Of a stretch of 64,000 nucleotides of DNA, positions 5,747 through 53,928 are shown piece after piece (within the stretch, counting starts at the first letter, position 1; every line of letters starts with the position of its first letter). The notes beneath the pieces are model-generated. The model was given only the letters and a program-made list of their open reading frames with translations. It did no database searches and was not told the DNA's origin. Made by a program: the position numbers and the translations under genes. Source of the stretch: Candidatus Heimdallarchaeota archaeon (GTDB lineage: Archaea > Asgardarchaeota > Heimdallarchaeia > Heimdallarchaeales > Kariarchaeaceae); NCBI GenBank assembly GCA_026702845.1, contig JADCLS010000001.1, forward strand, positions 1 to 64,000, written 5' to 3'.

Positions 5747-6133
5747 ATGGCCGGTATAGTATTTGTGAAAACAAAGGATTTAGAAAAGACGGTTTTTTTT
5801 TACAAGGACCTAGGTATGAAGCATTGGCTCAGTCAACCTGGAATTGAATTTCTATCTCATGAGAATATGATAATTGGTTTCCAGCAGACGGATGAGATCT
5901 CCAAGGACCTCCTCCTTACCTTTTTCTACCAGACTAGAGAGGAAGTGGATTTGCTGTTCGAGAAATACAAGAACGTTGCCACATCAGAACTGAAAGAGAA
6001 TACAAAATACAGGATATACAATTTCTTTGCCGAGGATCCTGAAGGTAGGGCAATTGAATTCCAGTGTTTCCTTCATGATCTGAAACCTATTTGTATAACT
6101 TGGATTACATCTCAAGAATTAGATGTGGATTGA
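5747..6133 (+). CDS. VOC-fold (glyoxalase/dioxygenase-like) protein
   Basis: 128 residues from the ATG at 5747; an in-frame TTG nine bases upstream is possible. The N-terminal VFVKTKDLEKTVFFYKDLGM is the usual first beta-alpha unit of a vicinal-oxygen-chelate domain, and DPEGRAIEFQCF near residue 110 is the usual final strand, with Glu as a metal ligand. A single VOC module normally works as a dimer, forming two metal sites. No specific reaction can be assigned. The C-terminal 29 bases overlap the convergent metallophosphoesterase gene. Confidence 0.78.
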   Translation: MAGIVFVKTKDLEKTVFFYKDLGMKHWLSQPGIEFLSHENMIIGFQQTDEISKDLLLTFFYQTREEVDLLFEKYKNVATSELKENTKYRIYNFFAEDPEGRAIEFQCFLHDLKPICITWITSQELDVD

Positions 6134-6845
6134 ACTCTGGAGTATATTCATATCCAACATACCCACGTGGATTACATCTAATCCGAGTGGAACCTATGGA
6201 GTAATCACATACTTCATGGGTATGACCATGAATCCAATAATTAGGCTTGGCCTCAGTTATAAAATGGTTCAAATCTGAGTAAAAAGCTCCATTAAGAGTT
6301 GAATGGTGGTATTTTGGATGTACACTGTTGAAACTGGGAAGATGATGAGTGATTACCACCTTTTTTTCCGCATTTGAATCAGTAACTGCGTTACCTAGCC
6401 AATCTACACTTTGCTTGTGAATCATCAGAGTATCAATTGGAACCAATAAGGCATCATCTTTACGAATAACTTGATAATCCATCATTCCACTCTGAGCTGC
6501 ATTCATTGATGATATAGATTGGTCCTCAAAATCACTCCAGAGAACACAGCCAAAGAATTCTATGTCATCAATTCTTATTGATTGATTTTCAAGGACGGAT
6601 AATCCCTCAGTGATTTTTGATATATGCTTCCATTGTCTCCATACTTCATCATAATCATGATGATAAAATTCGTGATTACCAAGTACATAAATCACTGGTG
6701 AAATCTCAAGTTGTTCTTGGATGAATCCCAGTGCCTTGGTGCCAACAAACACATCACCTGCAAGGATGAGCAGGTCTCTATCTACAGAATCAAGTTTTAT
6801 TGGTCCAAATTCCAGATGAAGATCACTAAGTATCTGAATTCTCAT
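6105..6845 (-). CDS. Calcineurin-like metallophosphoesterase
   Basis: 246 residues carrying all metallophosphoesterase blocks in order: SDLHLEF (residue about 8), GDVFVGT, GNHEFYHHDYDE, THHLPSFNSVHP and GHTHE near residue 205. These Asp, Asn and His residues bind the two metal ions, so the enzyme should be active on a phosphomonoester or diester. It is cytoplasmic, with no signal peptide. The substrate is unknown. The ATG at 6845 is preferred to the TTG immediately before it. The 3' end overlaps the VOC gene on the other strand. Confidence 0.88.
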   Translation of the reverse strand: MRIQILSDLHLEFGPIKLDSVDRDLLILAGDVFVGTKALGFIQEQLEISPVIYVLGNHEFYHHDYDEVWRQWKHISKITEGLSVLENQSIRIDDIEFFGCVLWSDFEDQSISSMNAAQSGMMDYQVIRKDDALLVPIDTLMIHKQSVDWLGNAVTDSNAEKKVVITHHLPSFNSVHPKYHHSTLNGAFYSDLNHFITEAKPNYWIHGHTHEVCDYSIGSTRIRCNPRGYVGYEYTPEFNPHLILEM

Positions 6846-6901
6846 CAATTGTATTCATTAATCATCACTGATAAATATTATTGGCCTACTAGTACAGAAA
6901 A

Positions 6902-7405: not shown

Positions 7406-7545
7406 GAATGTTATTTCAGAGGTTTGTATATATGGCTATTTGGCTCATATGGTGGAAATATTAACAAATACTCCTGAAATCATTATTGATACGAATTCAC
7501 AAATTAATTATAAGAAATTGAGTTTAGCTATCTAAACCAAATAAA

Positions 7546-7558
7546 TTTTATATATTTA
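7546..7558 (+). promoter_or_regulatory. TATA-like box of the giant TIR receptor gene
   Basis: TTTTATATATTTA is centred about 25 bases before the ATG at 7577, the spacing expected for a leaderless archaeal transcript. No Shine-Dalgarno-like sequence precedes the start, which fits. Based on spacing and composition only. Confidence 0.45.
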
Positions 7559-7576
7559 TGATATTAATTAAAGAAA

Positions 7577-10500
7577 ATGAAGCTGAGGTATCTCTTAATC
7601 AACATTATGATAGTTTTTTTCCTTCTACCAATATTTCCCGTCAATGAAATTACAGATGATAGTGAGAAGATAGCAGAAGAATTTGATACCTCAGATTACA
7701 AAATCAGATCTTCAAAGAGCTCATACTATAGTACATCAAGCAAGATTGTTTCATCAAAATCTCTTCCCCCGTTACATAATAATTTGATCAGACTAACAGA
7801 TGAAAATACCTTCATTTCCAAGTGGAATACGAGTAAAACTAGTGATGGTTCTAGTAATGCTACACAAATTAAACTGCCTTTGATCATAAGTGGAAATTAT
7901 AACTTTCAGGTGAATTGGGGAGATAGCTCAACTGATACAATCACCAGTTACAATCAAGAAGAGGTAACACATAATTATGCTTCTGAAGGGGTTTATGATA
8001 TTACAATTGATGGTACTATTGCAGGTTGGCAATTTGGTAATTCTTTTGATAAACTAAAAATTCTTGAAATATCACAATGGGGATCTTTTAAATTCGGAAA
8101 TTCAGGAAGTTATTTTCATGGTGCATCAAATCTAAATCTTACAGCAACAGATGCTCCTGATTTATCTGGAACTTTAACATTATATCAAGCTTTTCGCTGG
8201 TGTGATAATCTGGGAAGTACAGGAAGTATGAATTCTTGGAATACATCAAAAATTACAACTATGAATTATGCATTTCAATCAGCTAATACATTTAATCAAT
8301 CAATAGCAAATTGGGATATGTCCAATGTAATAAGTATGGTTGGAATGTTCGGTCAAGCCTACGATTTCAATCAACCTATTGGAAATTGGAATGTATCCAA
8401 AGTAACTGAAATGTACTCTGTATTCCAAGGTGCAATTTCTTTTAATCAATCATTAGCTAATTGGGATATTTCTAGTGCAACATCCTTGTATGCAATGTTC
8501 GCTTCTGCAAGCTCCTTTAATCAAGATTTGAGTAGCTGGAATCTTACTTCCGCTACCTTAACTCATTATATGTTTGCAGATGCGATTGCATTTAATCAAC
8601 CCGTGAGTGGATGGGATGTTTCTCGCGTCACGAATATGAATTCAATGTTTCATAATGCTCAAGCATTCAACCAACCTCTTAATTCATGGGATACTTCGAA
8701 CGTGACTTCTATGCAAGAGATGTTTTGGGATGCTTCTTCATTTAATCAAAGTTTGGACGGTTGGGATGTGTCAAAAGTCACTAATATGTACCGAATGTTC
8801 AGAGGTGCAACACCTTTCAATCAGGATCTGAGTAACTGGAACATTTCAAGCGTTACAAACATGGATTTTATGTTATTTGGAATTGTACCTCAAACTTACT
8901 ATGATGAAATGCTCATCTCTTGGTCCAGTTTGAACTTACAGGATGAAGTAACATTTGATGGTGGAAATTCTAAGTATACTATAGATGCATCTGATAATCG
9001 TCAGTACATTATTGATACTTATAATTGGACAATTAAGGATACTGGTTTAATTCCACCATCTGCTACAGAAAGAACATTTCTGAGTAAATGGAATACTAGT
9101 TCTATTAGTGTAGGTTCATCCAATTCTTCACAAATCCAGCTACCTTTAGAAGAAAATGGTAACTATCATTTCTATGTTGATTGGGGAGATGGTTCTCAGG
9201 AGTTAATTACATCTTGGAATCAAACAGAATCAACTCATAATTATGAAGTTGAGGGAGAATACAACATTTCAATAGATGGATTGTTTGAAGGTTGGATATT
9301 TGACAATCAAGGAGATAAATTGAAACTACTTGAGATTTCTCAATGGGGTGACTTAAAGTTAGGTAATTCTGGTAGCTATTTTAGAGGGGCTGAGAATTTT
9401 CAGCTATCTGCTGTTGATCCTTTGGATTTAACAGATACTACAACTTTTTATCGTGCTTTTGTATTATGTAAAAAATTAGGTGATCTAGGTTTTATGAATA
9501 TGTGGGATGTTTCAAATATCTCTTCGATGGCGCAGATGTTTTATGGAGCAACAACATTTAATCAGTCAATTAGTAATTGGGATGTTTCTCAAGTAACTGA
9601 TATGTCATATTTCTTATTTGATGTTCATGATTTTAATCAACCCTTGGGGAATTGGGATGTTTCGCAGGTAACTGATATGTCTTATATGTTCCAATATAAT
9701 TATATTTTCAATCAACCCTTATCTGATTGGAATGTTTCCCAAGTAAAAAACATGAGATATATGTTTAGCCATTGTGAATACTTTAATCAATCATTAGATA
9801 ACTGGGATGTTTCTAGTGTTACAAATATGTTTGGAACGTTTCATCAAGCCTTCAGATTTAATCAACCTTTAGGCAATTGGAATGTTTCAAATGTGACCTC
9901 AATGTTTGCAATGTTCCATAGTACATACAACTTCGATCAACCTTTAGGCAATTGGGATATTTCAAAAGTTACTTCACTAGAAGATATTTTCAAGAATACA
10001 GAATTATCAATAGAAAATTACAACAATTTGCTTCTAGGTTGGAGTCAATTGAATTTAAAATCAAATCTTACATTTACAGCAGGATCTTCAAGATTTGGGT
10101 ATATTGCTAAGGAGGCAAGAGATATCCTTACTGAAACATTTGGATGGGTAATAACAGATAGTGGACTAGATAATCGATTTATTTCCAGATGGGATACTCG
10201 AAATCTAAGTGATGGATCTAGTAATAGTAATCAGATCACACTTCCGCTTGAGGATATTGGAACTTATGATTTCACAGTGGATTGGGGAGATGGAACCTCA
10301 GATACAATATCTTCATGGGATCAAGTTGAAGTCACACATACTTATTCCACAGAAGGGATCTATACAATTATGATAGAGGGTTCCATCAGTGGCTGGAGAT
10401 TTGAAAATACTGGAGATAGATTGAAGTTACTTGAGATCTCACAGTGGGGAGTTCTGAATTTAGGGAATTCTGGAAGCTATTTCTGGGGTACATCAAATTT

Positions 10501-13500
10501 TGAATTAACAGCAATAGATCCTTTGGATTTAACTGGCACTACGACATTAATTCAAGCATTCGCTGGATGCTCATCACTTGGAGATCAAGGATATATCGAT
10601 CATTGGAATACTTCAGAGATTACCTCAATGAATGCTTTATTTGGCTCTGCTGTCACTTTCAATATGTCGATTGGAGATTGGGATGTATCAAAGGTGACTG
10701 ATATGTATCAACTATTTCACTTAGCCATTGCGTTTAATCAACCAATTGGGGAATGGAATGTTTCCTCTGTAACCTCTATGGATGGTATATTTTGGGATGC
10801 TCGAGCATTTAACCAGCCATTAGATGATTGGGATATATCTCATGTTACTACATTGAGAATTGCGTTCAATGATGCGGAAGTATTCAACCAACCAATAGGT
10901 TCATGGAACACCTCTCAAGTCACAGATATGTATAAGATGTTTGGATCAGCCCCCAAATTCAATCAACCGATAGGAAATTGGGATGTATCACGAGTAACAG
11001 TAATGCAGAGGATGTTTTCTGGAGCAGTTACTTTTAACCAAGATCTCAGTGGATGGAACACATCCCAGGTTCAAGATATGATGAATATGTTCACGAGTGC
11101 GTATGTGTTTAACCAGGATCTCTCTGGATGGGATGTTTCAGAAGTTAGATCTATGGATTCCATGTTTCGACAAGCTTTTGATTTTGATCAAGATCTGAGC
11201 TCTTGGAATATTTCTAATGTTTTAGACATGGATTTAATGTTTGCTGAAACCGGAATTTCTTCTGTATATTATAGCAATATGCTTTCTAGTTGGTCACAAT
11301 TAAATCTGCAACAAGATATTAATTTTGATGCTGGTGATTCCTCCTATCAATACTGGGCAATTGAATACAGAGATATCCTAACTAACACCTTTAATTGGGT
11401 AATTACAGATGCCGGTAGAGATTTTCGTTTTATTTCTAGATGGGATACAAGATTAACGTCCGATGGATCCAGTACCAGTAATCAGATCACCCTACCTTTA
11501 GAATCAATTGGAAGCTATGATTTCACGGTTGATTGGGGTGATGGGAATTCTGATACAATAACCTCCTGGGATCAGATCCAAGTTACCCACACTTATGCTA
11601 CAGAGGGAATTTACACCATCATTATTGATGGTGAACTTAACGGATGGAGATTCAATAACGGTGGAGATAAGCTGAAACTATTAGAGATTTCGCAGTGGGG
11701 ATCAATGCAACTTGGGAATTCAGCCTCATTCTTCTTAGGTAGTTCAAATTTTGTACTTACTGCAATAGATCCTCTAAATCTAACAGGAACAACAACATTA
11801 TATCAAGCATTCACTGGATGTTCATCTTTAGGTGATCAAGGCTTCATTGATCATTGGGATACATCAAAAATCACTTCAATGACACAACTCTTTAGCAACG
11901 CACTTTCTTTCAATATGTCAATCGGAAACTGGAATGTTTCCTCGGTTGAAACTATGTATTTGATGTTTAATCATGCGGATGCTTTCAACCAACCTATTGG
12001 AAATTGGGATGTTTCATCAGTTAGTAACATGAACAATATGTTTTGGAGTGCAGCATACTTCAATCAAGACATAAATTCGTGGAATGTATCACAAGTCACT
12101 ACCATGCAAACTATGTTTAAAGGTGCGATTAGGTTTAATCAGCCATTGGATAACTGGGATGTATCCAAAGTAACAGATATGGATAAAATGTTTAGCTACA
12201 CTCCAAATTTTAATCATCCGATTGGTACTTGGGATGTTTCTAGTGTCACCTCAATGGCAGAGATGTTTGCTGGAGCATCTGTTTTCAACCAAGATCTTAG
12301 CCAGTGGAATACATCACAAGTTAATAATATGTTTGCTATGTTCTCAACAGCTTATGCCTTCAATCAGGATATTAGTTCATGGGATGTTAGCTCTGTAGTT
12401 AATATGAATAGCATGTTTTACCAAGCTTCTAATTTTGACCAGGATCTTAGTAGTTGGAATATTTCTTCAGTAACAGATATGACTGATATTTTCTCTGGTA
12501 TCTCGCTCTTAACTCAATATTATGATCTGATGTTGGAGGAATGGAGCAAACTAAGCTTGCAATATAATGTTTCATTCAATGCTGGCTTATCCAACCACAC
12601 CAATTATGAGGCTCGACAGTTTATTATAGATACATTCAACTGGACAATAACTGATGCTTGGTATCTGGCAGTAGCATCCGCACCTTTGGATGTGGTGACC
12701 GATCTACTGGGTGATCATGCAAACATCACCTGGAGTGCACCAGAATATCTTGGTTCTCCTGGATTAACTGAATACCATATCTACCGTAGGGTGGAACTGG
12801 AATCCCAATTTATATTAATCGGCATATCTTTCTCCCTCTCGTATCTGGATTACAATATCACCCATGGCTACATGTACTACTACAAAGTAGTGGCAATTAA
12901 TGATCATGGCTCGGGAGAGCAATCAGCGGAGGGATTATTAGATTTGGTTGATCCTGGTATAGATGTTCTGTCTGACCTAACTGCAGAATTGGGTGCTGAC
13001 ATAGATTTCTCTTGGAATATTACTGATTCTAACCCACATACATACACCATCTACTTGAATGGAAGCATAGTTGATTCTGGTAATTACAGCTCAGAAGTAA
13101 TCTCCTACAATCTATCACCTTTCGATCTTGGAACATACAATATTACCATTATCGCCAACGATACCTTTGGTAACATTGAATTTGTACAGCGTATGATAAC
13201 TGTAGTGGATACAACTAGTCCGATAGTCTCCTCACCTGTAAATTTACAACTGGAACAGGAAGATGATAATGCTGTGATACTTACCTGGTTGGCCACGGAT
13301 TTAAAAGCTCAGAATGTCTCCTTCTATATTGATGGAAACAAAATCAACGAGACCAGCTGGATTAGCAATCAGAATATCAGCTTCTCTATCACCCAGTTCT
13401 TTAACCTTGGACAGTATAATTTCAGTGTACTTGTTACAGATACATCAGGAAATGCTGTTCTGGATACCGTAATCGTCACAATAATTGATACCAGCCCACC

Positions 13501-14695
13501 TCAGATCACTTCACCAGAAGATCTCAGTTTTGAATCTGGAACCACAGGTAACACCATCACCTGGCAGGGAAATGAGCGCAATCCCTACTATTATCGTATC
13601 TATCTCAATGGGACCCAGATTGCAGGATTGGAGTGGGATGGAGCTGATGTCAGCCTGCAACTTGATAATTTTCTTCCTCATGGATATAATTTCACTATTA
13701 TCCTCTATGATTCCTCAGGAAATACCGTTTCAGATACTGTAATGGTTTCAATCATAGATAGCACAGCACCTGAGATGGATGAGGAAGAAATTCTTGAGAA
13801 TAATCCAAATGTTCAGGCAGGTGGTATTATGGTGGTGTATATAGAAGATGAGAATGAAATTGTTAGGCTCGAATACTCATGGAATGGAGGAGATCTACAA
13901 TTTGGTAGATCACTCAACTCTTCACTTATTCTCACAGCCAAGGACAGGTATTATTTCGAACTCGATGTTCCAGAAGGTATTTCTGGTAATAATGCGTTGC
14001 AACTCAGAGCATATGATAGCTCAGGTAATTTTCAGCTCCTGACAATGACTGTCGGCATTGCATTAGAAAGCTCCAGCGATGATCCTACCGTTGATTTGGA
14101 GGGTATCGGTACTTATCTTCTAATAGCTTTTGCTTCATTATTGACAGTATTGGGACTATTCCTGATGATAAAACGATTGAGAAAGGATACAGAGGAATCA
14201 GATGAAGCTGAAGAAATTTTAACTTCTGGGAAAATTATTCCAGAGGTGTTTATCAGCTTCTCCAGTAAGGATAAGAAACTTGCAGAGGAGGTATTCCGTA
14301 CCATCGATAAGAAATACAGGGTATGGATTTCCACACAGAGTATCGATGCAGGAGAGAATTATGCCAATCAGATCATTGATGCAATCGATTCCTCAAAGGT
14401 ATTTGTGTTACTTATCAGCAAACACTCAATTCAATCTCGACATGTGGAGACTGAGCTAGAACGAGGTTTTTCCAAGCGCAAGGAGATAATACCTGTGATG
14501 CTTGAGGAGATAACCATCCCTCGTAGCTGGGAGTACTATCTGAGCACCTCTCAATGGAAGCGTGCTCATGAAAAACCCAAGAAGGAATGGATAGCAGAAA
14601 TCCTATCCTCAATTCATCAAAAACTGGGTAAATCAGTGGATGAGGAGATCGATGAGCTTATGGATAGATATGATCAGAGTGACAAAAAAATCTGA
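7577..14695 (+). CDS. Giant Toll-like-receptor-like protein: PKD/BspA repeats, FN3/Ig-like domains, one TM helix, cytoplasmic TIR
   Basis: 2372 residues. An N-terminal hydrophobic segment (residues 4-21) is the likely signal peptide. Residues about 79-1695 are four tandem modules, each opening with a PKD-like cap (VDWGDG, later HTY..EGIYTI) followed by BspA/DUF285 repeats of the type FNQPIGNWDVSKVTDMYxMF; I count 9, 7, 9 and 9 units. An FN3-like domain covers about 1702-1792, then three or so Ig/cadherin-like domains each opening DTTSP or similar. One membrane helix lies at about 2176-2199, followed by a basic stop (KRLRKD). Residues 2222-2345 are a TIR domain: VFISFSSKDK, BB-loop region STQSIDAGE, then SRHVETELERGF, whose Glu2293 matches the catalytic Glu of NAD-cleaving TIRs. 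Expected topology is external ectodomain and internal TIR. BspA repeats bind surfaces or ligands in other organisms; the role here is inferred. Confidence 0.92.
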   Translation: MKLRYLLINIMIVFFLLPIFPVNEITDDSEKIAEEFDTSDYKIRSSKSSYYSTSSKIVSSKSLPPLHNNLIRLTDENTFISKWNTSKTSDGSSNATQIKLPLIISGNYNFQVNWGDSSTDTITSYNQEEVTHNYASEGVYDITIDGTIAGWQFGNSFDKLKILEISQWGSFKFGNSGSYFHGASNLNLTATDAPDLSGTLTLYQAFRWCDNLGSTGSMNSWNTSKITTMNYAFQSANTFNQSIANWDMSNVISMVGMFGQAYDFNQPIGNWNVSKVTEMYSVFQGAISFNQSLANWDISSATSLYAMFASASSFNQDLSSWNLTSATLTHYMFADAIAFNQPVSGWDVSRVTNMNSMFHNAQAFNQPLNSWDTSNVTSMQEMFWDASSFNQSLDGWDVSKVTNMYRMFRGATPFNQDLSNWNISSVTNMDFMLFGIVPQTYYDEMLISWSSLNLQDEVTFDGGNSKYTIDASDNRQYIIDTYNWTIKDTGLIPPSATERTFLSKWNTSSISVGSSNSSQIQLPLEENGNYHFYVDWGDGSQELITSWNQTESTHNYEVEGEYNISIDGLFEGWIFDNQGDKLKLLEISQWGDLKLGNSGSYFRGAENFQLSAVDPLDLTDTTTFYRAFVLCKKLGDLGFMNMWDVSNISSMAQMFYGATTFNQSISNWDVSQVTDMSYFLFDVHDFNQPLGNWDVSQVTDMSYMFQYNYIFNQPLSDWNVSQVKNMRYMFSHCEYFNQSLDNWDVSSVTNMFGTFHQAFRFNQPLGNWNVSNVTSMFAMFHSTYNFDQPLGNWDISKVTSLEDIFKNTELSIENYNNLLLGWSQLNLKSNLTFTAGSSRFGYIAKEARDILTETFGWVITDSGLDNRFISRWDTRNLSDGSSNSNQITLPLEDIGTYDFTVDWGDGTSDTISSWDQVEVTHTYSTEGIYTIMIEGSISGWRFENTGDRLKLLEISQWGVLNLGNSGSYFWGTSNFELTAIDPLDLTGTTTLIQAFAGCSSLGDQGYIDHWNTSEITSMNALFGSAVTFNMSIGDWDVSKVTDMYQLFHLAIAFNQPIGEWNVSSVTSMDGIFWDARAFNQPLDDWDISHVTTLRIAFNDAEVFNQPIGSWNTSQVTDMYKMFGSAPKFNQPIGNWDVSRVTVMQRMFSGAVTFNQDLSGWNTSQVQDMMNMFTSAYVFNQDLSGWDVSEVRSMDSMFRQAFDFDQDLSSWNISNVLDMDLMFAETGISSVYYSNMLSSWSQLNLQQDINFDAGDSSYQYWAIEYRDILTNTFNWVITDAGRDFRFISRWDTRLTSDGSSTSNQITLPLESIGSYDFTVDWGDGNSDTITSWDQIQVTHTYATEGIYTIIIDGELNGWRFNNGGDKLKLLEISQWGSMQLGNSASFFLGSSNFVLTAIDPLNLTGTTTLYQAFTGCSSLGDQGFIDHWDTSKITSMTQLFSNALSFNMSIGNWNVSSVETMYLMFNHADAFNQPIGNWDVSSVSNMNNMFWSAAYFNQDINSWNVSQVTTMQTMFKGAIRFNQPLDNWDVSKVTDMDKMFSYTPNFNHPIGTWDVSSVTSMAEMFAGASVFNQDLSQWNTSQVNNMFAMFSTAYAFNQDISSWDVSSVVNMNSMFYQASNFDQDLSSWNISSVTDMTDIFSGISLLTQYYDLMLEEWSKLSLQYNVSFNAGLSNHTNYEARQFIIDTFNWTITDAWYLAVASAPLDVVTDLLGDHANITWSAPEYLGSPGLTEYHIYRRVELESQFILIGISFSLSYLDYNITHGYMYYYKVVAINDHGSGEQSAEGLLDLVDPGIDVLSDLTAELGADIDFSWNITDSNPHTYTIYLNGSIVDSGNYSSEVISYNLSPFDLGTYNITIIANDTFGNIEFVQRMITVVDTTSPIVSSPVNLQLEQEDDNAVILTWLATDLKAQNVSFYIDGNKINETSWISNQNISFSITQFFNLGQYNFSVLVTDTSGNAVLDTVIVTIIDTSPPQITSPEDLSFESGTTGNTITWQGNERNPYYYRIYLNGTQIAGLEWDGADVSLQLDNFLPHGYNFTIILYDSSGNTVSDTVMVSIIDSTAPEMDEEEILENNPNVQAGGIMVVYIEDENEIVRLEYSWNGGDLQFGRSLNSSLILTAKDRYYFELDVPEGISGNNALQLRAYDSSGNFQLLTMTVGIALESSSDDPTVDLEGIGTYLLIAFASLLTVLGLFLMIKRLRKDTEESDEAEEILTSGKIIPEVFISFSSKDKKLAEEVFRTIDKKYRVWISTQSIDAGENYANQIIDAIDSSKVFVLLISKHSIQSRHVETELERGFSKRKEIIPVMLEEITIPRSWEYYLSTSQWKRAHEKPKKEWIAEILSSIHQKLGKSVDEEIDELMDRYDQSDKKI
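7811..12660 (+). repeat. Four tandem coding modules of about 1.1-1.27 kb
   Basis: The modules start near 7811, 9076, 10178 and 11429, each at an F-I/L-S-K/R-W-(N/D)-T segment. Modules 3 and 4 are the most alike (both open RFISRWDTR and share the GCSSLGDQG and DHW(N/D)TS stretches), which suggests the latest duplication. Module 2 is shorter by two BspA units. Within modules a unit of about 24-26 residues repeats. Confidence 0.9.
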
Positions 14696-24924: not shown

Positions 24925-27900
24925 ATGAACATCTTGGATATTCTAATTATCTTATTATTTGCCTTACCAGTTACAGGAATTTTATTATTACAAACTGGAA
25001 TATTGCTAGAATCACAATATATCATATTTTTACTGGTTCTTTTAGTAATTGGATGGATTCTCGGATTTAGATTAATTAGCAATTTGACTGATAATAGTTA
25101 TGATAGGTATTTTGGTGCAATAATATTTTCATTTGCTTATGTCTTATTGTCTGGTTTCATATTGGAGGAATATCTATCAGGTACAGAACTTTTAGTAGAT
25201 AATATTCTAAGTTATCCATTATTTCTTTCTCTAATTGTGTTCTTGCTTGGATTTAGTTTAATCGAGTGGATAGCATTAGTAAATCCTGAAGAAGCAGATG
25301 CAATCACCCCATTGCAAATGAAGATGGAACAAATACTTGAGAAGCTTACACGAAGTAATCATGTTTTAGTAATAGTAGTATTCTTAGTTATTCATTCACT
25401 TCTATACTTGTTAATTTATTTATTAGTTCAAGATTTTGTATTTTCACTCATCATTCTCGCTCTAGTCTTCCCCCTTATCAATCTCGGGTACATTACAGGA
25501 GTAAATTTAGGGCAGGATCTGTTATGGGCCAAAGTGTGGTTGATTCATAAGACCAAGGAAATTAAAGCAAAAACATCTGAGACTAAAGATTATCTAAATG
25601 ATTACGAATATTATGTAATTAAGGATAAAGTCAATTGGATTGATGTGAATTGGGAAAAGAAACGATTTGGATTTTTGCAGGTAATTGGTTTGGGCATAAA
25701 ATCAGCGGGGATACTTGCTGTTTTCTTACTCTTCACTACTATCAACTCACTTTATTCTGATCTATCAGATCTATCGTCAAGTGATGCAGGAGGAGTAGGG
25801 ACTGGAATACTTGCAATTATATCAATAGCTAGATTATTGATACTGAATGGACGAAATGCTATTGCAGAAACCATGCATATTCATGATGCACTAATCGTTA
25901 AGAAGAGAATATCTCGTTTTAATAAAATCTATCCTATGTATGTGTTAACCACAATATTTATGCTGTTGCTCATAGAATTCCTAACTGGAGTTAGTGCAAG
26001 GGATGATCAAATCATGGAGAAACTATTTTTCACTGAGATTGCTACCTATAATTTTATTCTACTTTTCCAAACAATAATACTAGTTACAGTGGCATTAGCG
26101 ATACTTGTTTTCAAAGCAAAACCTCTCACCTTAGATACAAATGATGAGATATATGACGATTTAGATAATTTATCTCCTCTGGAGAGATTTGATCTTTTTG
26201 AGAAATTACAGAATGATGTACTGCTATCCGCTAATGATGAGATGGATATGCGTGACAATATTCAGAAGATACTTGATATAGCTCCCGATAAAATAAAGAT
26301 CAATGTTATTATGGAGTATATCAATAGCACTTATGATAGTGTACAGGAATTGGTTACAAGAGCTTTTCCTGAAGATTCTGATGGTGAGTTATCTGAATAT
26401 ATACTTGCCCAATTAGAAGAAATTGACCCTGAATCTAGAAAAAAGGCACTAGATGTTATCCGGTGGCATAATTACATTCCTGAGCTTGAATCATTGGTAG
26501 AAACAGGAACAATAAACGGTGATTGGGTAAAATTTAGACTAGATACTGATTTGGAAGAGAAGTATGGATACAGAGATTTCAGCTATACAAAAAAATATTT
26601 TCTCATTCTATCAGAATTGGATCACTATGAGTATAATCTTGAGGTTATAGATAAATCAATCCGAGGTTTTGATCCTGTACTTGATGTGATTGATTTCAAT
26701 GCACATACTGCTTGTTTCCTGACAAATTCAGATAATAGCGTATTTATTGCATATTTAGACGAAAATCGCATTAAAATCAGTAGATACGAAGAAGGAGCAG
26801 GTATGCAAGATATTTGTAGTTTAGTTATTGATGATGATGAATTCAGTAATGATTTAATATTACACAAGGAAAAACCTCAAGCAATTGGATTACAATTAAC
26901 TACTGATAAATCCATAGATAATAATTTCCTGCTTAAAATCCATCACACCAGAATAAACAAGAGGATTGAATATCAACTCCAATTCAATGATATTGATTCA
27001 GAAGTGAAAGTAATTTCTACAAAGAATATTCCAGTGCCCTTCCCACCTGAGATGATGGATAATTTTTACTTTAATGAAGACATACAATTATTCTATCAGC
27101 AGGATATTTTACAAATAAGAGATATGGATAACAAAATTCTTTATCAGTTAGAGGATAAAGATGACAATCCAATATCAATCAATTGTATGGATGTATTTCA
27201 GAAAAAAGCATATTTTGGTATTAACAACTCAATATACTGTATAGATTTATCTCTTAATCAAAATCAACAATTGAAAGCTGATATAATTGAACTCCATGAT
27301 CTGGTTCACAGTATTCAGGTCAATTATAAGTTCATTGTAGTAGGCTTGGGTGAAACTGAAACTGTTCTCATCAATAGAGAATCTGGAAAGATACAATCAT
27401 ATTTACGTGAGATAACAGATTCCAAGGCTAAGAAAATTCTAATAAGAAATAATATTATAGGTGTATCTGATGTAAGGTTAACGACTTTTATTCCAATTTC
27501 AATTGCTATAAGGTATGCCGGATATCCTCCCTATCATAAACAAGAGATTTGCGATCTCAGAATTAATGGTAGTCATTTATTCACTTTATCAATTGATAAT
27601 GTGATTAAAAAATGGGATTCTAAGTCTCTCAAGGAGCTAAATTCTCTAGAAATAAATTCAATTGCTTCTACTAGAATCGCTTTAGATACTGAAGATCTTT
27701 ATTTGGTAACAGCTGAAAAGGAATTACTGGTTATAGATCAAAAGAACTTGGAGGTCAATAAACAAGAAGTCATTGATATTGCAGGTAGGCCTCAATCAAT
27801 TCTGGTTGATGATCAGTATATCTATATTGGAACCTATCCTGAGGGAGAACATTCAGAATTCAAGATTTTTGATAAAAATTCTCTCTCACAGATTTTCCAT

Positions 27901-28548
27901 CATCAAGATAAGGGGGAGATGAAATGTATTTCATGTGATTCTGACTTTGTCTATTTAGGTGTGAATGGATCTCTTGTAATATTTGAGCAGAAAAATGGTT
28001 CATTTGTTGAAATTCATCGTTACAAACAGGAACTTGATGAAATATACATTGACTTTCAACGTTATTCTTCTGAAGATGGCTGCAACTCAGTATTCGTAGA
28101 TGATCATCATATTTATGTTGCAGGTTATGACAAAATCATCGTGTTGAAAAAAGATTCAAGAACTTCATTCCCGGTAATTCAACAATATGGCCCCTATCTA
28201 AGGCCAAATCCAGATGATCAACCTAGTGTCCTTCATGTAGTAGTTGATAAGCATTATGTGATAGCTTCCACAGAGCAGGATGTACATGTATGGGATAAAA
28301 TAAGCGATTCTGAAAAAGGGCAGTATCGAACTAGAGCTGTTTTCTCCGCACATAAGGCAATTATTTCGGCATTGGAAATCAATGAAAATCATATCTATAC
28401 AACATCTTTTGATAAGACAATTAGAAAATTCGAAAAACCCGCAGTACGAGATTTTAGATCTGCATTGATAAAATATCTTTATGTGGTGCCTGTGGCAATT
28501 CCAGCATACTTCTTGTATTCCTACTTGAGTTCGTTCCTAACAGTATAG
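24925..28548 (+). CDS. Large membrane protein with C-terminal WD40-like beta-propeller
   Basis: 1207 residues. About ten hydrophobic helices occupy residues 1-415. A helical region follows (about 425-545; LSPLERFDLFEKLQND...). From about residue 560 to 1180 the sequence is a run of beta-propeller blades with WD40-like signatures, for example NGSHLFTLSIDNVIKKWD near 890 and ISALEINENHIYTTSFDKTIRKF near 1160. A last hydrophobic helix closes the protein. The propeller is most likely cytoplasmic and would serve as a protein-binding platform anchored to the membrane. I recognise no family for the whole chain. Start at ATG; no partner gene is evident. Confidence 0.72.
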   Translation: MNILDILIILLFALPVTGILLLQTGILLESQYIIFLLVLLVIGWILGFRLISNLTDNSYDRYFGAIIFSFAYVLLSGFILEEYLSGTELLVDNILSYPLFLSLIVFLLGFSLIEWIALVNPEEADAITPLQMKMEQILEKLTRSNHVLVIVVFLVIHSLLYLLIYLLVQDFVFSLIILALVFPLINLGYITGVNLGQDLLWAKVWLIHKTKEIKAKTSETKDYLNDYEYYVIKDKVNWIDVNWEKKRFGFLQVIGLGIKSAGILAVFLLFTTINSLYSDLSDLSSSDAGGVGTGILAIISIARLLILNGRNAIAETMHIHDALIVKKRISRFNKIYPMYVLTTIFMLLLIEFLTGVSARDDQIMEKLFFTEIATYNFILLFQTIILVTVALAILVFKAKPLTLDTNDEIYDDLDNLSPLERFDLFEKLQNDVLLSANDEMDMRDNIQKILDIAPDKIKINVIMEYINSTYDSVQELVTRAFPEDSDGELSEYILAQLEEIDPESRKKALDVIRWHNYIPELESLVETGTINGDWVKFRLDTDLEEKYGYRDFSYTKKYFLILSELDHYEYNLEVIDKSIRGFDPVLDVIDFNAHTACFLTNSDNSVFIAYLDENRIKISRYEEGAGMQDICSLVIDDDEFSNDLILHKEKPQAIGLQLTTDKSIDNNFLLKIHHTRINKRIEYQLQFNDIDSEVKVISTKNIPVPFPPEMMDNFYFNEDIQLFYQQDILQIRDMDNKILYQLEDKDDNPISINCMDVFQKKAYFGINNSIYCIDLSLNQNQQLKADIIELHDLVHSIQVNYKFIVVGLGETETVLINRESGKIQSYLREITDSKAKKILIRNNIIGVSDVRLTTFIPISIAIRYAGYPPYHKQEICDLRINGSHLFTLSIDNVIKKWDSKSLKELNSLEINSIASTRIALDTEDLYLVTAEKELLVIDQKNLEVNKQEVIDIAGRPQSILVDDQYIYIGTYPEGEHSEFKIFDKNSLSQIFHHQDKGEMKCISCDSDFVYLGVNGSLVIFEQKNGSFVEIHRYKQELDEIYIDFQRYSSEDGCNSVFVDDHHIYVAGYDKIIVLKKDSRTSFPVIQQYGPYLRPNPDDQPSVLHVVVDKHYVIASTEQDVHVWDKISDSEKGQYRTRAVFSAHKAIISALEINENHIYTTSFDKTIRKFEKPAVRDFRSALIKYLYVVPVAIPAYFLYSYLSSFLTV

Positions 28549-35522: not shown

Positions 35523-36947
35523 TCATCTGATTTTTGCTGACAGTTGTCTGAAAACAAATGGGTTGTCATTCTCAAAGGTTTCAACCTGAGTATCATCCAA
35601 ATGAATTTCCTGTAATTGTCTAAGTTTGGAGAGATCTGATGGGAATTTTGAGATGGGATTATTGGTTATTTTCAAAAACTGTAGATCTACAAAATTAATC
35701 ATATCAACCAGGCCTATCACTTGATTATCTCGTAGATCTAGTGACTTAATAAACGAGTACGTAGATGCTCTAGGTCCTTCAGTTAACTGATTATTTGAAA
35801 GTGTAAGCTCTGATAACGAGGAGAACCGGGAAAGATCAAATAGGAATTCTGTTAATTGATTATTACTCAGATTAATCTTCTCTACTTTCGTCAGATTGTA
35901 CAGCTCCTGAGGGATTGATTTTAATTTATTATTTGAAACATTAAGCTCCCGTAATGAAATAAGCGAAAATATACTCACTGGAATATCTGTTAATTCCAAG
36001 TTGGATAGATCAAGAGATTTGTATCCTCGTTCATCAATAACTAATCTGGTATAGAGATGTATAGATTCCAGCTCGATCTCAAGTAGTTGACACTCAAGGA
36101 AGAATTTCTTCAAGAAAACAGAAAAATCCTCATGTAAAGCAGCAAAAACTGGATTATGATCTGCTTTTACTGATGGAATACTTAGTATTCCAGAGGGAAA
36201 TTCACTAAGTTTGGTTTTATTTAATAGTAAAGTCTCAAGTGAATCAGGAAATAAAGGGAAAATGGATCGTATGGGATTATTGGAAAGGTCTAATAATTTG
36301 AGTTTAGGTAAGCTGAGAAATGATGGGATTGCTCCTATTCTATTGTTTGAAAGAATTAGAGTTGTAAGATCTAGTAACTGATTGAACTCAGCATTAATAT
36401 TTGAGATATTGTTATAACTAAGATCTATCTCCTCTACTAATTGGAGAAAGGATAGAAAAGAGGGGATTTCACTCAACTGGTTTCCCTGAGCCCTAAAATG
36501 TGTTAAATTCTGGAGTTTAGAGAAATCAGCATGTAAGTTTTTGATTTTGTTATAACTGATATCCATTACCTTCAGATGCTCTAATTCTGAAAAGTCTGAG
36601 GGAATATTCACAAGCTGATTATTGGAGAGTAGGAGCTGTTCAAGCTCGGTGAGTTCAGCTAGTTCATAATTTAGTACCTGCAGGCGATTATGGCTGATAT
36701 CAAGTATTTTTAGATTGTTTAATCGATTAATCTCATCAGGAAGATCATCTATTAAATTCCTGTTCAGATTAACCTCAACAAGATTGGGAATCATATCTAG
36801 ACTTCTTGGCCAAATTTTAATGCGTAAATTGCTAAGATCTATTCTAATTCCATATGGTTCTTCGATAATCCTCTCTAAAAATACCTCCCTATCCATTGAA
36901 AGTTCAAAAGCAAGCTCATCTATTGCTTTTTTAATTCTTCTGAACAT
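35523..36947 (-). CDS. Leucine-rich-repeat protein
   Basis: 474 residues. At least 14 LRR units of the bacterial/plant type LxxLxxLxLSxNxLxxIP are seen in two blocks: about residues 60-265 (for example LKILDISHNRLQVL, LEQLLLSNNQLVNIP) and about 320-460 (LRELNVSNNKLKSIP, VEKINLSNNQLTEF). A spacer of about 50 residues without repeats separates them. There is no signal peptide or membrane helix, so the protein is cytoplasmic and likely binds another protein. The binding partner is unknown; LRR chains often pair with small GTPases in Asgard genomes, but no GTPase gene is adjacent here. Confidence 0.9.
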   Translation of the reverse strand: MFRRIKKAIDELAFELSMDREVFLERIIEEPYGIRIDLSNLRIKIWPRSLDMIPNLVEVNLNRNLIDDLPDEINRLNNLKILDISHNRLQVLNYELAELTELEQLLLSNNQLVNIPSDFSELEHLKVMDISYNKIKNLHADFSKLQNLTHFRAQGNQLSEIPSFLSFLQLVEEIDLSYNNISNINAEFNQLLDLTTLILSNNRIGAIPSFLSLPKLKLLDLSNNPIRSIFPLFPDSLETLLLNKTKLSEFPSGILSIPSVKADHNPVFAALHEDFSVFLKKFFLECQLLEIELESIHLYTRLVIDERGYKSLDLSNLELTDIPVSIFSLISLRELNVSNNKLKSIPQELYNLTKVEKINLSNNQLTEFLFDLSRFSSLSELTLSNNQLTEGPRASTYSFIKSLDLRDNQVIGLVDMINFVDLQFLKITNNPISKFPSDLSKLRQLQEIHLDDTQVETFENDNPFVFRQLSAKIR

Positions 36948-42808: not shown

Positions 42809-44662
42809 TTAATCAGCAAAACTCTCCACATACTCTAGGGATTGATGCCTGAAGTAGGTGTCGTACAATTCGGAGTAATGGCCCTTTTGTGCCATCAGTT
42901 CATCATGGTTACCTTCTTCGATGATTTTTCCATCTTTCATGACAAGAATTCTATCCACATGTCTGATCGTGCTCAGTCTGTGGGCTATGATTATTGAAGT
43001 TCGACCCTCAAGGATGAGATCAGTGGCCTTTTGGATCTTGACCTCGGTGAATGGATCTACGCTCGATGTTGCCTCATCCATGATGAGTATGGCTGGGTCA
43101 CGCAGCAGGATTCGTGAGAATGCAATCAGCTGCCTCTGTCCAAAGCTCAATTTACCTCCTCGCTCACCTACGCTGGTTTCAATTCCATTTTCCAGTCTCT
43201 CAATCCAATCCATGGCCTCCACCTTCTTGAGTACTTCAATTAACCGCTCCTCAGCATTATCAATATGCTCTATACCATACATGAGATTATCCTTGATGCT
43301 CTCATTCCACAGAAAAACATCCTGTGAAATGATAGAAAGCTTCTTTCTGTACTCTCTCAGATTCAGCTTTCGAATATCAACACCATCAATGAGTATTTCT
43401 CCGTTCTGATACTCATAATACCGTGAAATCAGTTTAACAAGTGTAGATTTACCAGCTCCTGTATGGCCGACAATGGCGATTTTCTCACCTGGATTGATGT
43501 GTAGATTATAATCATGAAGTACTTTTGTACCATCTGAGTACTCAAAATCCACACCCTTGAATTCGATCTCTCCTTTGATCTCTTCTAGAAGTTGATCATC
43601 TACCTGGACTACGGTATTTTCAGTGTCAATGAGACTGAAAATTCGTTCAGATGCTGCCAATCCCTGCTGAAATTGCGACCAGAAAGATGCTATGGATACT
43701 AGTGGAAAGAAGAAAAGGTTCAATCCCTGGAGGAAGAGATACCATTCTCCAGGTGTGAGTTGTCTACCGGGTAATGAGAATATTATTCTTGATAGAGGCG
43801 TATTGGCCTGCAGAATATCTAAGCCACCAAAGTAAACAATACCTGCTGTACCGATGCCGATGAGAATATTGAGAATGGGGAAAATACTATTGAAAACTAT
43901 CGCACGTCTGAGATTTACATCATAACTCATCTTATTCATATCATCAAATTCATCGTAGATTGATTGCTCTGCTCTGAATGATTTGGCTACATATATCCCA
44001 CTCTGGGTCTCCTGGATTAGAGCATTGACCTTGGCAAGAATTCTCTGCGAGTTCTGCGATACTTTACGTGCTATTCGTCTGAAGGAGAGAGCTGTGAACA
44101 CTACAATAGGAGCAAATAGGATGGTAAATACCGTCAATTTCACTGAGATATTGAGCAACACAAAGATGATGATGAATACGATAAGTACCTGACCGAGTAA
44201 ATTCATAGTAAGTGATACAACCTGCCCGTAATCTCTAGAATCATTAGAAATACGACTTGCCAGTCTACCACTGGGTTGCTCATCAAAAAATGCCATATCC
44301 TTTTCTAGGAGTGCATCAAATGCATCCTCTCGCAGATCGACAACTGCTGCCTGTATCGTTCGTGCGGAGAGTATCTGTTGAAAGGCATTGAGTGCAAAAT
44401 TGACTACCCCGAAAAGGATAACCATAAGCATAAGCTGGGTAATGAAAGTATTCTCAATTCCCTGTTCAAGTTTATCTAGCACATCTGAGATGTATATGGG
44501 TACAAGAGTAGCTGCAGCACTGGATATTGTGATTGCGATACCTATCATCAACATATTATATTTGTACTTGGAGAAGTAACTCAATATGCGTTTTAGTAGA
44601 ACCATATCTCCGTATTCTCTGTCATAATCACTTTTATCTAGTCCATGTAATACAAATCCCAT
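42809..44662 (-). CDS. ABC exporter half-transporter, catalytically complete subunit
   Basis: 617 residues from the ATG at 44662. A GGAGG sits 8 bases before this start, inside the last codons of the upstream gene, and decides it over an ATG seven codons upstream. Six membrane helices (residues about 40-340) are followed by the NBD: Walker A VGHTGAGKSTL, signature LSFGQRQ, Walker B ILIMDEATSSVD with the catalytic Glu, and H-loop IIAHRLSTI. Paired with the gene just upstream it forms a heterodimeric exporter of the TM287/288 or BmrCD type, moving lipids or drugs out of the cell. Confidence 0.9.
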   Translation of the reverse strand: MGFVLHGLDKSDYDREYGDMVLLKRILSYFSKYKYNMLMIGIAITISSAAATLVPIYISDVLDKLEQGIENTFITQLMLMVILFGVVNFALNAFQQILSARTIQAAVVDLREDAFDALLEKDMAFFDEQPSGRLASRISNDSRDYGQVVSLTMNLLGQVLIVFIIIFVLLNISVKLTVFTILFAPIVVFTALSFRRIARKVSQNSQRILAKVNALIQETQSGIYVAKSFRAEQSIYDEFDDMNKMSYDVNLRRAIVFNSIFPILNILIGIGTAGIVYFGGLDILQANTPLSRIIFSLPGRQLTPGEWYLFLQGLNLFFFPLVSIASFWSQFQQGLAASERIFSLIDTENTVVQVDDQLLEEIKGEIEFKGVDFEYSDGTKVLHDYNLHINPGEKIAIVGHTGAGKSTLVKLISRYYEYQNGEILIDGVDIRKLNLREYRKKLSIISQDVFLWNESIKDNLMYGIEHIDNAEERLIEVLKKVEAMDWIERLENGIETSVGERGGKLSFGQRQLIAFSRILLRDPAILIMDEATSSVDPFTEVKIQKATDLILEGRTSIIIAHRLSTIRHVDRILVMKDGKIIEEGNHDELMAQKGHYSELYDTYFRHQSLEYVESFAD

Positions 44663-44663
44663 A

Positions 44664-46463
44664 TTATTTTGCCTCCTTATCAAAAATTGAGAAGATCATC
44701 TTATACTCATCACTATTCTTCATCAAGTACTCATGGGATCCCTGATTGATGATCTCACCTTGATCAAATAGTATAATATGATCTGCTTTGCGTATCTGTG
44801 CTATTCGATGAGTAATGATAAAACTCACCCTATTTTTGAGTACATTTCGAATGGCATTGTTAATCTCATCCTCTGTTTTACTATCGATCGAGCTCGAAGA
44901 ATCATCCAGAATTAGGATGGCTGGATCCCTGATAATCGCACGTGCTATCGCAATACGTTGTTTCTGTCCTCCAGAGATGGTAGATCCACGTTCCCCAATA
45001 ACTGTCTCATAGCCTTCCGGTAGATTCATAATAAATTCATGAGCATGTGCCATCTTTGCAGCTTCAATTACTTGTACCTCTAGATCTGATTTTGGAACAC
45101 CATTCATTCCAAGGGTGATATTATCAATGGCCGACTTGGAGAAGAGGAAAACATCTTGCTCCACCAGGGCCATCTGTGATCGTAAACTCTCGATACTCCA
45201 CTCCTTGAGATCCTTGCCATCGATGAGGATCTGTCCCTCTTGTGGATCATATAGGCGACTTAATAATTTGGTAATGGTGGTTTTACCTGAACCAGTCACT
45301 CCCACAAGGGCAATGGTTTGGCCAGGTGATACTTTGAATGAGATATTTTTCAGCACTGGTAGGTCATCAGAATAGCCAAAGGTTACATTCCTAAACTCTA
45401 TATCCCCTGATATTGGAGCTGCATACCCATCACTATTATCCGAGATTTTACTCTCACCATTGATGAGTTCAAGTACTCGTTCACCAGCAGCGATACCTAG
45501 GCTTATCATGGTCAATGCAAAAATATTGATGAACGTTGGGAAGCGAAGCAAATTCAGCAACAAGATAAACGTTACCAAATCCTCGAATAATATGGCTGAG
45601 TGATTGAGCAGGAATATCCCATGTAGGATACCGACAGCATTGGCCACTCCTAGCATGAGTAATGGATAGTATTTAGCTTGTGTCTCACCAAGTTTAACTT
45701 GAGCTGTTTCAAATTCCTTGATATTCTTTTGAAAAATTGCTCGTTCACCATTTTCCTTGGATGCACCTCTAACGACATGAATGCCATTGATCACCTCATT
45801 CAAACGTGCATTGATTTTGGATACAGCTTGCCTAGATTCCATTGCTGGTGGTTTTAATTGCTTGTTGTACCAGCGAAGAACTATGAGAAAACTAATCAAG
45901 TACAGGATAGGAACAAGTAGGAGTTGATAATTTATCATCCCAATAAATATTAATGGAAAAAGGGCGGAGACGATTGAAGCAAAAACGAGATTCACTCCTG
46001 GATTGATCATGAAGTTCAGCTGTCTGACATCTGTCGCAGCTCTTGACATCAGATCTCCTATTTGCTGTTTATCATGCCAAGTTAGGCTTTTTCCCATCAA
46101 TGATGCATAGAGTTCATCTCTGGTGTCTCGCTCAATTCTCTGTCCGATAAATTCAATGGCTATATTTCTCATCATGACCATCAATCCTATGGCTAATCCA
46201 TAGATCAGTATTTGAATACTATAATCTGTCAGCAGGTCTAAGGTGAGTGTATTCTTGACTAATAGTCCAAATAATGTTCCTATTAGACCAGGTATAATAC
46301 TCTGAGATAGAGAGCTGATGATCTGGAATGAAATCACCATGAAAATGAAAAATTTATTACGTAAAGTGTGAGATACTATCCAGCGAATTGGGCCAGACCT
46401 ATTGGTGTTGAAAGGATTGACCAAACTGAACTCACTCAACTGAGTACTCATTAAGTAATTCAT
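44664..46463 (-). CDS. ABC exporter half-transporter, subunit with degenerate catalytic site
   Basis: 599 residues. Six membrane helices (about 35-330) and an NBD: Walker A VGVTGSGKTTI, signature ISGGQKQR, Walker B ILILDDSSSSID and H-loop IITHRIAQI. In Walker B the residue after the Asp is Asp rather than the usual catalytic Glu, as in the degenerate half of heterodimeric exporters. It is first in the operon; its stop overlaps the ribosome-binding region of the second subunit, so the two are made in equal amounts. Substrate unknown. Confidence 0.9.
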   Translation of the reverse strand: MNYLMSTQLSEFSLVNPFNTNRSGPIRWIVSHTLRNKFFIFMVISFQIISSLSQSIIPGLIGTLFGLLVKNTLTLDLLTDYSIQILIYGLAIGLMVMMRNIAIEFIGQRIERDTRDELYASLMGKSLTWHDKQQIGDLMSRAATDVRQLNFMINPGVNLVFASIVSALFPLIFIGMINYQLLLVPILYLISFLIVLRWYNKQLKPPAMESRQAVSKINARLNEVINGIHVVRGASKENGERAIFQKNIKEFETAQVKLGETQAKYYPLLMLGVANAVGILHGIFLLNHSAILFEDLVTFILLLNLLRFPTFINIFALTMISLGIAAGERVLELINGESKISDNSDGYAAPISGDIEFRNVTFGYSDDLPVLKNISFKVSPGQTIALVGVTGSGKTTITKLLSRLYDPQEGQILIDGKDLKEWSIESLRSQMALVEQDVFLFSKSAIDNITLGMNGVPKSDLEVQVIEAAKMAHAHEFIMNLPEGYETVIGERGSTISGGQKQRIAIARAIIRDPAILILDDSSSSIDSKTEDEINNAIRNVLKNRVSFIITHRIAQIRKADHIILFDQGEIINQGSHEYLMKNSDEYKMIFSIFDKEAK

Positions 46464-52132: not shown

Positions 52133-52404
52133 GTTGGTAAATTTCACGTTTCCTATATTAAAATATATGTTCAAAGGCACTATTTAGAAAAAATCACTTC
52201 CTCAAGCTAGACAAATTAATGTGATGCTTTAATTGACATAGCAGAATTCCTTGATTGTTGTCAAATTCTCCCCTTCTTAATGTACTGATGCCCTATGTCA
52301 AAATTTTTGTTAAAATATTCATTGTTGTGAATTATATTAAATACTTACAAATACTCATAGCACATCATATCAAATATAGATTAAAATTTAGGTGTACACA
52401 TATT

Positions 52405-53928
52405 ATGACGGAGAGTAAACCACCCAAACTTATTTTCGCAGGTTTAGATAAGGCAGGAAAAACCACTATCTACCAACATGTATTGAAAGAAATGAACGTC
52501 TCCGAGATAAAGGATTTACGGCCTACAAGAGGGATTGAGAGGCATGCTCATGATTTCCTTGATCAAGACTTTAGCGTCTGGGATCTAGGTGGCCAACTTT
52601 CATATAGACAGACATATCTTTCTAAACCAGAAGTATTTAATCAGACTTCAGCCTTGATTTTTGTTGTGGATATCCAGGATTTTGAGAGGATACAGGAAGC
52701 CTATGCATATTATGTTGATATCCTCAACATTCTTGTAAATGTGGAGAATAAACCAAAGCTTTATGTTTTATTCCACAAATATGACCCAGAGCTTAGAGGG
52801 AAGCTAAGAAATAATTTCTACAAGGCAACTAGGATCTTCAGGAAAGCAGATACCATTTTGAATATCAAATTTAAGGGCTATGCCACGAGTATTTTCTCCA
52901 ATCAAATAGAATTGGCCGTGAAAAGAATACTTTTCGACAATTTTGAACAGTTTTCTGAAGAACCTACGGGTACGGTTAAGGCACAATCAACATTACAAGT
53001 GGATATTTCGAAGAAATCAACTGATTCAGGAGATGTTGTAACTCCACCTACCTCTACACCTACACCCACTACAGTTGCCGCACCAGGTACACCAGAAGCA
53101 AAATCTTCTAAACCAAGCATTTCTGCACCCACACCGACAACAAGTGCTGCACCAGGTACACCAGAAGCAAAAGCTCCTACACCTAGTATTTCTGCACCCA
53201 CACCGACAACAAGTGCTGCACCAGGTAAACCAGAAGTAAAAGCTCCTACACCAAGCATTTCTGCACCCACACCGACAACAAGTGCTGCTCCAGCACCTAC
53301 CACTGCTGCAATCAAGGAACCCGAGGTATCTGAACCTGAAAAGACAGTTGAGGAGATAATTGAAGAGGAACCTGAATCTACGTCAGATGAGATGGAAACC
53401 AAAGCTCTCGAGGAAGCAACTCCAAAATCATTTGATGATATATCTCAGGATGTAGTGGAACGCTTGACCAATGTCATCAATAAGCGAATGAAGGATACAC
53501 CAGAGATTGTCGCTCTATCAATTTTATCTAGTAAAGGTGAACAAGTGCTTGGAATTGGAAAATCAGATGATGATTATGAAAAGCTAGAAAAATTACGTGC
53601 TGTAGTGGGTCAATTAAATCCCGAACGTTTCTTCAAAGATCTAACTGATATAGAATATCGAGGTTTGGGTCATTTTCCAATGAATGATTTTGATATTTTC
53701 TTTGCACGCGCTTCTGATAATTATGCAGTTGCAGTGTTAGTAACCGATATTTCTACTATCATGCTCCAAAATGCCCAACGTATTGTTAAATCAATTCGCC
53801 AGGGTCTGAGTCTCACAGCAGATGATGATGCTTTAGATGATGAGGACAAACCCAAAACCAAGAAAAAGGATCTTGTTAGTGACTTACGTAGTAGATTACG
53901 AAATCTCTCCGGATTAGAAGAAGTATAA
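52405..53928 (+). CDS. Rag/Gtr-like small GTPase fused to a roadblock/LC7 domain
   Basis: 507 residues from the ATG at 52405; the open frame begins earlier, but those 50 residues look non-coding. Residues 8-190 are a Ras-superfamily G domain of the Rag/Arf side: P-loop GLDKAGKTT, G3 WDLGGQ (Asp60) and a G4 of HKYD, which matches the HKxD of Rag/Gtr proteins. A Pro/Thr/Ala-rich linker with three 23-residue repeats runs about 215-345. Residues about 355-475 form a roadblock domain (VERLTNVINKRMKDT, VALSILSSKGEQVLG, YAVAVLVTDIS). Eukaryotic Rag GTPases also end in a roadblock fold. The tail is Lys/Asp-rich. It converges on a TerB-like gene. Confidence 0.9.
   Translation: MTESKPPKLIFAGLDKAGKTTIYQHVLKEMNVSEIKDLRPTRGIERHAHDFLDQDFSVWDLGGQLSYRQTYLSKPEVFNQTSALIFVVDIQDFERIQEAYAYYVDILNILVNVENKPKLYVLFHKYDPELRGKLRNNFYKATRIFRKADTILNIKFKGYATSIFSNQIELAVKRILFDNFEQFSEEPTGTVKAQSTLQVDISKKSTDSGDVVTPPTSTPTPTTVAAPGTPEAKSSKPSISAPTPTTSAAPGTPEAKAPTPSISAPTPTTSAAPGKPEVKAPTPSISAPTPTTSAAPAPTTAAIKEPEVSEPEKTVEEIIEEEPESTSDEMETKALEEATPKSFDDISQDVVERLTNVINKRMKDTPEIVALSILSSKGEQVLGIGKSDDDYEKLEKLRAVVGQLNPERFFKDLTDIEYRGLGHFPMNDFDIFFARASDNYAVAVLVTDISTIMLQNAQRIVKSIRQGLSLTADDDALDDEDKPKTKKKDLVSDLRSRLRNLSGLEEV
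53080..53286 (+). repeat. Three tandem 69-base repeats in the GTPase linker
   Basis: Copies begin at 53080, 53149 and 53218. Each encodes a variant of APGTPEAKxxxPSISAPTPT, followed by TSA. Period and near-identity point to recent slippage or unequal crossing-over. Such repeats would let the linker length vary between strains. Confidence 0.9.

Follow-up and report, generated by a model that had tools for sequence, protein, structure and literature searches.

To our knowledge, the TIR proteins described from prokaryotes act inside the cell, as sensors or effectors; Cat1, ThsB, SPARTA TIR-APAZ, AbTir and the archaeal TcpA/TcpO are all intracellular. Animal Toll-like receptors (TLR/Toll) have a solenoid ectodomain, one membrane helix and a C-terminal cytoplasmic TIR fold. 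Finding a single-pass TIR receptor that faces the cell surface in the archaea considered closest to eukaryotes would be a sign that this layout arose more than once and that, in archaea, recognition at the surface can be linked to TIR signalling. Here we describe a candidate of this kind in a 64,000-nucleotide stretch of a Candidatus Heimdallarchaeota genome (GCA_026702845.1, contig JADCLS010000001.1, positions 1–64,000; the window). A single intact open reading frame (ORF), spanning exactly 7577–14695 (+), encodes a protein of 2,372 amino acids that had been predicted from the sequence letters to be an outside-in receptor with a TIR output. The single-pass layout and cytoplasmic TIR of that prediction held, given their recurrence in two further proteins and a predicted TIR fold; its argument from an NAD-specific Glu did not. 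We consider it probable that the protein is an archaeal type I membrane receptor in which binding at the surface would lead to receptor clustering and then to TIR signalling, most likely NAD+ cleavage. The anatomy of this receptor is well supported and its mechanism plausible.

Hydropathy analysis revealed just two segments over threshold, a signal-like N-terminus (residues 1–26; 7577–7654) and a single predicted transmembrane segment (residues 2171–2202; 14087–14182) with basic residues at its end (KRLRK directly after it); the next best 19-residue window elsewhere in the receptor reached 1.33. Both segments, including the basic stop, are as originally described, and a second membrane helix, which would have spoken against the receptor, was not seen by hydropathy. 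Given the signal-like N-terminus and the basic stop, the repeats probably lie outside the cell and the TIR domain inside.

The TIR domain (residues 2224–2332; 14246–14572) was delimited by Pfam, alignment and fold prediction. It matched Pfam TIR_2 with 71.3 bits (E = 1.3e-19), and a TIR fold was predicted at a mean pLDDT of 93.9, in agreement with the earlier assignment. The TIR fold and a conserved Glu are shared with the prokaryotic effectors named above; the receptor differs from them in its predicted extracellular sensor and in having His (H2289) where SARM1 has a pocket Trp. The Glu, E2293 (codon 14453–14455), is invariant in 14 of 14 TIRs in an alignment (A3) of the window TIR and 13 of the 16 bacterial loci described below; L013, L015 and L016 were left out, and hence also from the profile model and the tree. 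The residue four positions earlier is His in all three receptors identified here and H, E, D and W in 7, 5, 1 and 1 of the rows of A3, respectively. According to excerpts of PMC7075850, the SARM1 Trp stands four residues before the Glu (W71/E75 in that paper's numbering), and the TIR Glu is found in >70% of all TIRs and in >90% of those of TLR1/2/6/10. E2293 had been taken as the Glu of NAD-cleaving TIRs; it is present and invariant but not diagnostic, since a conserved Glu does not by itself mark such TIRs. The frequency of the Glu in some TLR TIRs and the His at position 2289 are both compatible with a different reading, in which the protein is a surface adhesin or cell-envelope protein and its TIR merely an intracellular scaffold or anchor (for example, to other TIR or cytoskeletal proteins) with no ligand-triggered enzymatic signalling; the retention of E2293 in all three receptors counts against this.

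The two other receptors were found in a search with residues 2100–2372, which returned three proteins at E ≤ 0.001 among 2,295 candidates: the window's own (P0001), P0002 (3,926 aa, Candidatus Heimdallarchaeota; 42% identity over 100%) and P0003 (2,117 aa; 39% identity over 92%). In both P0002 and P0003, a single strong hydrophobic segment precedes the TIR, and the order of ectodomain, single helix and TIR that homologues had been expected to keep was borne out in both. The N-terminus of P0003 is signal-like, and a weaker segment (643–662; 1.59) lies within its propeller repeats; P0002 is without an N-terminal hydrophobic segment by hydropathy. The ectodomain of P0002 is made of DUF285/PKD modules; in P0003, DUF7948 and SBBP beta-propeller repeats stand in their place, followed by Ig-like domains that align with the stalk of the window's receptor. 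Pairwise identities among the three were 64/54/56% in the TIR, 49/36/32% in the membrane-proximal Ig domain and 27/24/28% in the helix and linker. The C-terminal helical extension (residues 2336–2372; 14582–14692) has 59% identity in P0002 and is unconserved in P0003 (20%). The three receptors formed a clade at 100/99 in a tree of 22 TIRs that also included 13 loci titled as bacteria and six database proteins. Conservation is highest in the TIR, whereas the ectodomain is swapped; this speaks for the TIR as the output and further weakens the scaffold explanation. Such a combination of a constant output with interchangeable sensors characterises a receptor family, and judged by their sequences these proteins appear to keep stalk, helix and TIR and to exchange the sensor, as expected of such a family. 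A search with the TIR region of P0003 found only itself among 517 candidates, missing P0001 and P0002; the search was therefore insensitive and the family is probably under-counted here. An assembly artefact was ruled out because two further proteins share the domain order and the source contig is 865,877 bases long. Counts of N-glycosylation sequons in the outside parts, observed versus expected (P0001, 54 versus 37; P0002, 69 versus 66.7; P0003, 31 versus 25), were not used as evidence. After its TIR, P0003 has approximately 300 more residues (1800–2117) with four CxxC motifs, perhaps zinc ribbons.

The ectodomain of the window's receptor begins with four modules, each consisting of a PKD-like domain and 25-residue PARCEL/DUF285 repeats: module 1 (7796–9061), module 2 (9062–10192), module 3 (10193–11428) and module 4 (11429–12667). 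A strict motif counted 30 repeats in exact 25-residue register (8 + 6 + 8 + 8), and each repeat array stands behind a PKD-like domain marked by 'WGD' (residues 112, 534, 901 and 1318); modules 1, 3 and 4 are 48, 53 and 52% identical to module 2. The four modules are thus as first described, and the 34 short repeats originally counted would fit with one looser first unit per module. The repeats matched Pfam DUF285 with 1196.7 bits (cut-off 25; 13 stretches) and NCBIfam TIGR02167 (PARCEL) with 276.6 bits (cut-off 30), and also passed a model for a PARCEL lipoprotein of Mycoplasma (684.8 versus 500). The repeats, first described as BspA, are therefore PARCEL/DUF285 (TIGR02167) repeats; P0002 carries the source name 'BspA family leucine-rich repeat surface protein'. 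Known PARCEL/BspA-like proteins, defined by tandem DUF285 or 26-residue PARCEL repeats, are mostly surface lipoproteins or adhesins; here, such an array is joined to a helix and a TIR. Module 2, used for AlphaFold prediction, probably folds in a leucine-rich repeat (LRR)-like manner as had been claimed, with less certainty than the TIR fold, by comparison with proteins some of which we take to be LRR proteins; Foldseek alone gave no match below E = 0.001 with the ectodomain. Pfam PKD_4 (37.9 bits; one stretch significant alone) and PKD (32.7 bits; no stretch significant alone) exceeded their cut-offs. Towards the membrane follow putative fn3/Ig-like stalk domains (residues 1698–2061; 12668–13759) and a membrane-proximal Ig-like domain (residues 2062–2170; 13760–14086), kept in P0002 (49%) and P0003 (36%). 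The FN3/Ig-like domains of the original prediction correspond to weak or off-name matches: fn3 fell just below its cut-off (24.4 versus 25 bits), and ChitinaseA_N (35.1) and hGDE_N (31.5) passed theirs over Ig/PKD-like parts. Elsewhere in the window, a 474-aa protein (35523–36947, −) has true LRRs (LRR_4, E = 3.3e-36; LRR_8, E = 4e-36), a family different from the PARCEL repeats of the receptor.

'Toll-like' holds for the layout, with a probable solenoid ectodomain and a single-pass protein with a C-terminal, presumably cytoplasmic TIR (hydropathy and fold prediction); in sequence terms, the best-scoring model for the TIR is prokaryotic TIR_2. The receptor is more than twice as long as TLRs, and its repeats, split by PKD domains and followed by an Ig stalk, are unlike theirs. 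Pfam TIR (PF01582) gave 27.3 bits, above its cut-off of 21.3 and below the TIR_2 score. In a single-sequence search of solved structures (E ≤ 0.1), the TIR matched just the CRISPR-associated effector Cat1 (E = 4.9e-7) and a tetratricopeptide-repeat TIR protein, with no TLR among the matches; Cat1 again led a profile search (E = 4.4e-12). The BB loop reads SIDAGE and not RDxxPG, the sequence given for box 2 of TIRs in excerpts of PMC7075850. With box 2 absent and the scores, structural matches and ectodomain pointing elsewhere, it is extremely unlikely that the protein is a vertical relative of animal TLRs whose architecture was inherited from Asgard archaea, and we infer that convergence is the better reading. 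The IL-1 receptor family likewise has Ig-like domains beside a single helix and a cytoplasmic TIR (excerpts of PMC7075850); in the protein described here, the Ig-like domains form a stalk beneath large repeat modules, and the box 2 of IL-1R is absent. As had been noted, no TIR adaptor was seen in the window: a six-frame profile search gave the receptor frame (E = 1.8e-47) and no second TIR, the next match (E = 0.023) being in a 42-residue frame.

A profile search for shorter relatives matched 42 of 7,997 scored proteins, mostly without TIR. Six are named as Asgard (Kariarchaeaceae P0010; Thorarchaeota P0014, P0022 and P0047; Heimdallarchaeota P0015; Sigynarchaeota P0023) and one as Nitrosopelagicus. 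Precomputed domains placed a TIR in 6 of the 42, none of the 6 with a stalk family, and these matches thus included no shorter protein that combines stalk and TIR. Most others seem by eye to match via Ig-like domains (P0015, P0020, P0025, P0029, P0040 and P0041); sequences were retrieved for 10 of the 42. P0020 combines a PARCEL and Ig ectodomain (52% identical with module 1) with a short hydrophobic tail and lacks a TIR. Because stalk-like Asgard proteins and the TIR-less P0020 exist, the receptor looks, on sequence grounds, to have been assembled from local surface modules and a prokaryotic TIR. The occurrence of its ectodomain modules in such surface proteins is also what a structural role for the TIR would lead one to expect; weighing this against the conservation of the TIR and E2293, we regard the scaffold or anchor explanation as unlikely.

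Genome-contig scans used two peptide patterns only and are no proof of absence. The first pattern matched 144 stretches with no relative among them, and the second scan, built on the TIR alignment, matched 202 stretches and yielded 16 loci, with no archaeal title among them; two scans of viral contigs gave no match. The 16 loci encode proteins of 235–715 aa (one cut by a contig end); in 13 of them, the TIR starts no later than residue 27. Two different TIR genes, L012 and L013, lie a few kilobases apart on one bacterial contig (JAFGCO010000039.1). At E ≤ 1e-10, a stalk–helix–TIR profile was matched in two bacterial phyla, five times in 4 of 199 genomes (phylum of genome G003) and 16 times in 13 of 198 (phylum of G002). 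These matches map to the TIR portion of the profile, their frames being no longer than 810 aa, and none covers the stalk; two of the five in the phylum of G003 extend upstream to profile positions 299 and 314 (299 across a stop codon). Contig 7 of G003, the Lachnospiraceae metagenome-assembled genome behind L002, has a DUF285 match in a 4,252-aa open frame, and the DUF285 family occurred in one of four genomes searched and in none of 14 controls. Among the matches listed from the open-licence PubMed Central literature, there was no description of receptors of this kind in archaea; in excerpts of an Asgard defence survey (PMC11291487), the whole word 'TIR' occurs twice, in defence-system names, and 'Toll' and 'receptor' do not occur as whole words.

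In the mechanism that we favour, export of the N-terminus would place the PKD/LRR-like repeat modules and the Ig stalk outside the cell and the TIR inside. An outside ligand (another cell, a virus or a polymer) would bind and bring receptors together, and the TIR domains, once clustered, would associate with one another and signal. The most likely means is NAD+ cleavage, either to make a messenger or to deplete NAD; alternatively, a TIR-bearing partner may be recruited. This receptor hypothesis is directly testable on the 152-residue domain. More tentatively, the three proteins may belong to a family of Asgard TIR receptors that signal from outside to inside, whose ectodomains are interchangeable and which were put together independently of animal TLRs. 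Such receptors would convert recognition of another cell or a virus at the surface into a signal derived from NAD, as an archaeal equivalent of pattern-recognition receptors. The output could also be suicidal, with attachment of a virus or vesicle triggering TIR NADase activity and cell death, which would make the receptor a membrane-bound counterpart of Thoeris or SPARTA effectors. Cat1 as nearest solved kin in the single-sequence search fits this idea, as do a Pfam ThsB_TIR match (26.5 versus cut-off 21.2) and weak similarity to ThsB and retron-TIR families in PADLOC and NCBIfam; the NCBIfam scores are far below curated cut-offs (ThcB4, 22.3 versus 220 bits). Pfam annotation of 40 of the 70 mechanically called window ORFs of ≥100 aa (7 without any match) gave transporters, mechanosensitive channels, acetyltransferases, kinases and metabolic enzymes, and neither there nor among the 10 ORFs also searched with PADLOC was there a ThsA partner gene, another known TIR partner or a recognised defence gene. 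We therefore consider a suicide receptor improbable. The sole PADLOC match was a metallophosphoesterase (6105–6848, −) resembling the candidate PDC-S10 (E = 1.1e-11), perhaps a housekeeping enzyme.

The receptor gene stands alone, with a divergent neighbour upstream and a convergent neighbour downstream that ends two bases away. A TATA-like stretch, read by eye (7540–7577), ends approximately 20 bases before the ATG, and the transcript would therefore be leaderless or nearly so. GC content at third codon positions (GC3) climbs gradually along the gene to 0.45–0.46 in the TIR (14087–14692). For the TIR piece, GC3 is 0.461 against a control mean of 0.314; among 378 overlapping control windows of equal length, 5 attain this value, all within two ORFs, and recent transfer of this piece is not claimed. 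An archaeal RNase P RNA at 57619–57898 (133.8 bits versus 84) marks the contig as archaeal. The small GTPase domain of a 557-aa protein (52255–53928, +) is Rag/Arf-like (Gtr1_RagA, E = 6.7e-23) and of a kind associated with Asgard archaea; together with the nearest relatives of the receptor, it points to an Asgard origin. A 1,207-aa protein (24925–28548, +) has several hydrophobic stretches, identified by eye, in its N-terminal half and weak WD40-like propeller matches, all below curated cut-offs, towards its C-terminus. Two adjacent ABC half-transporters with membrane and ATPase domains (42809–46463, −) perhaps form a heterodimer.
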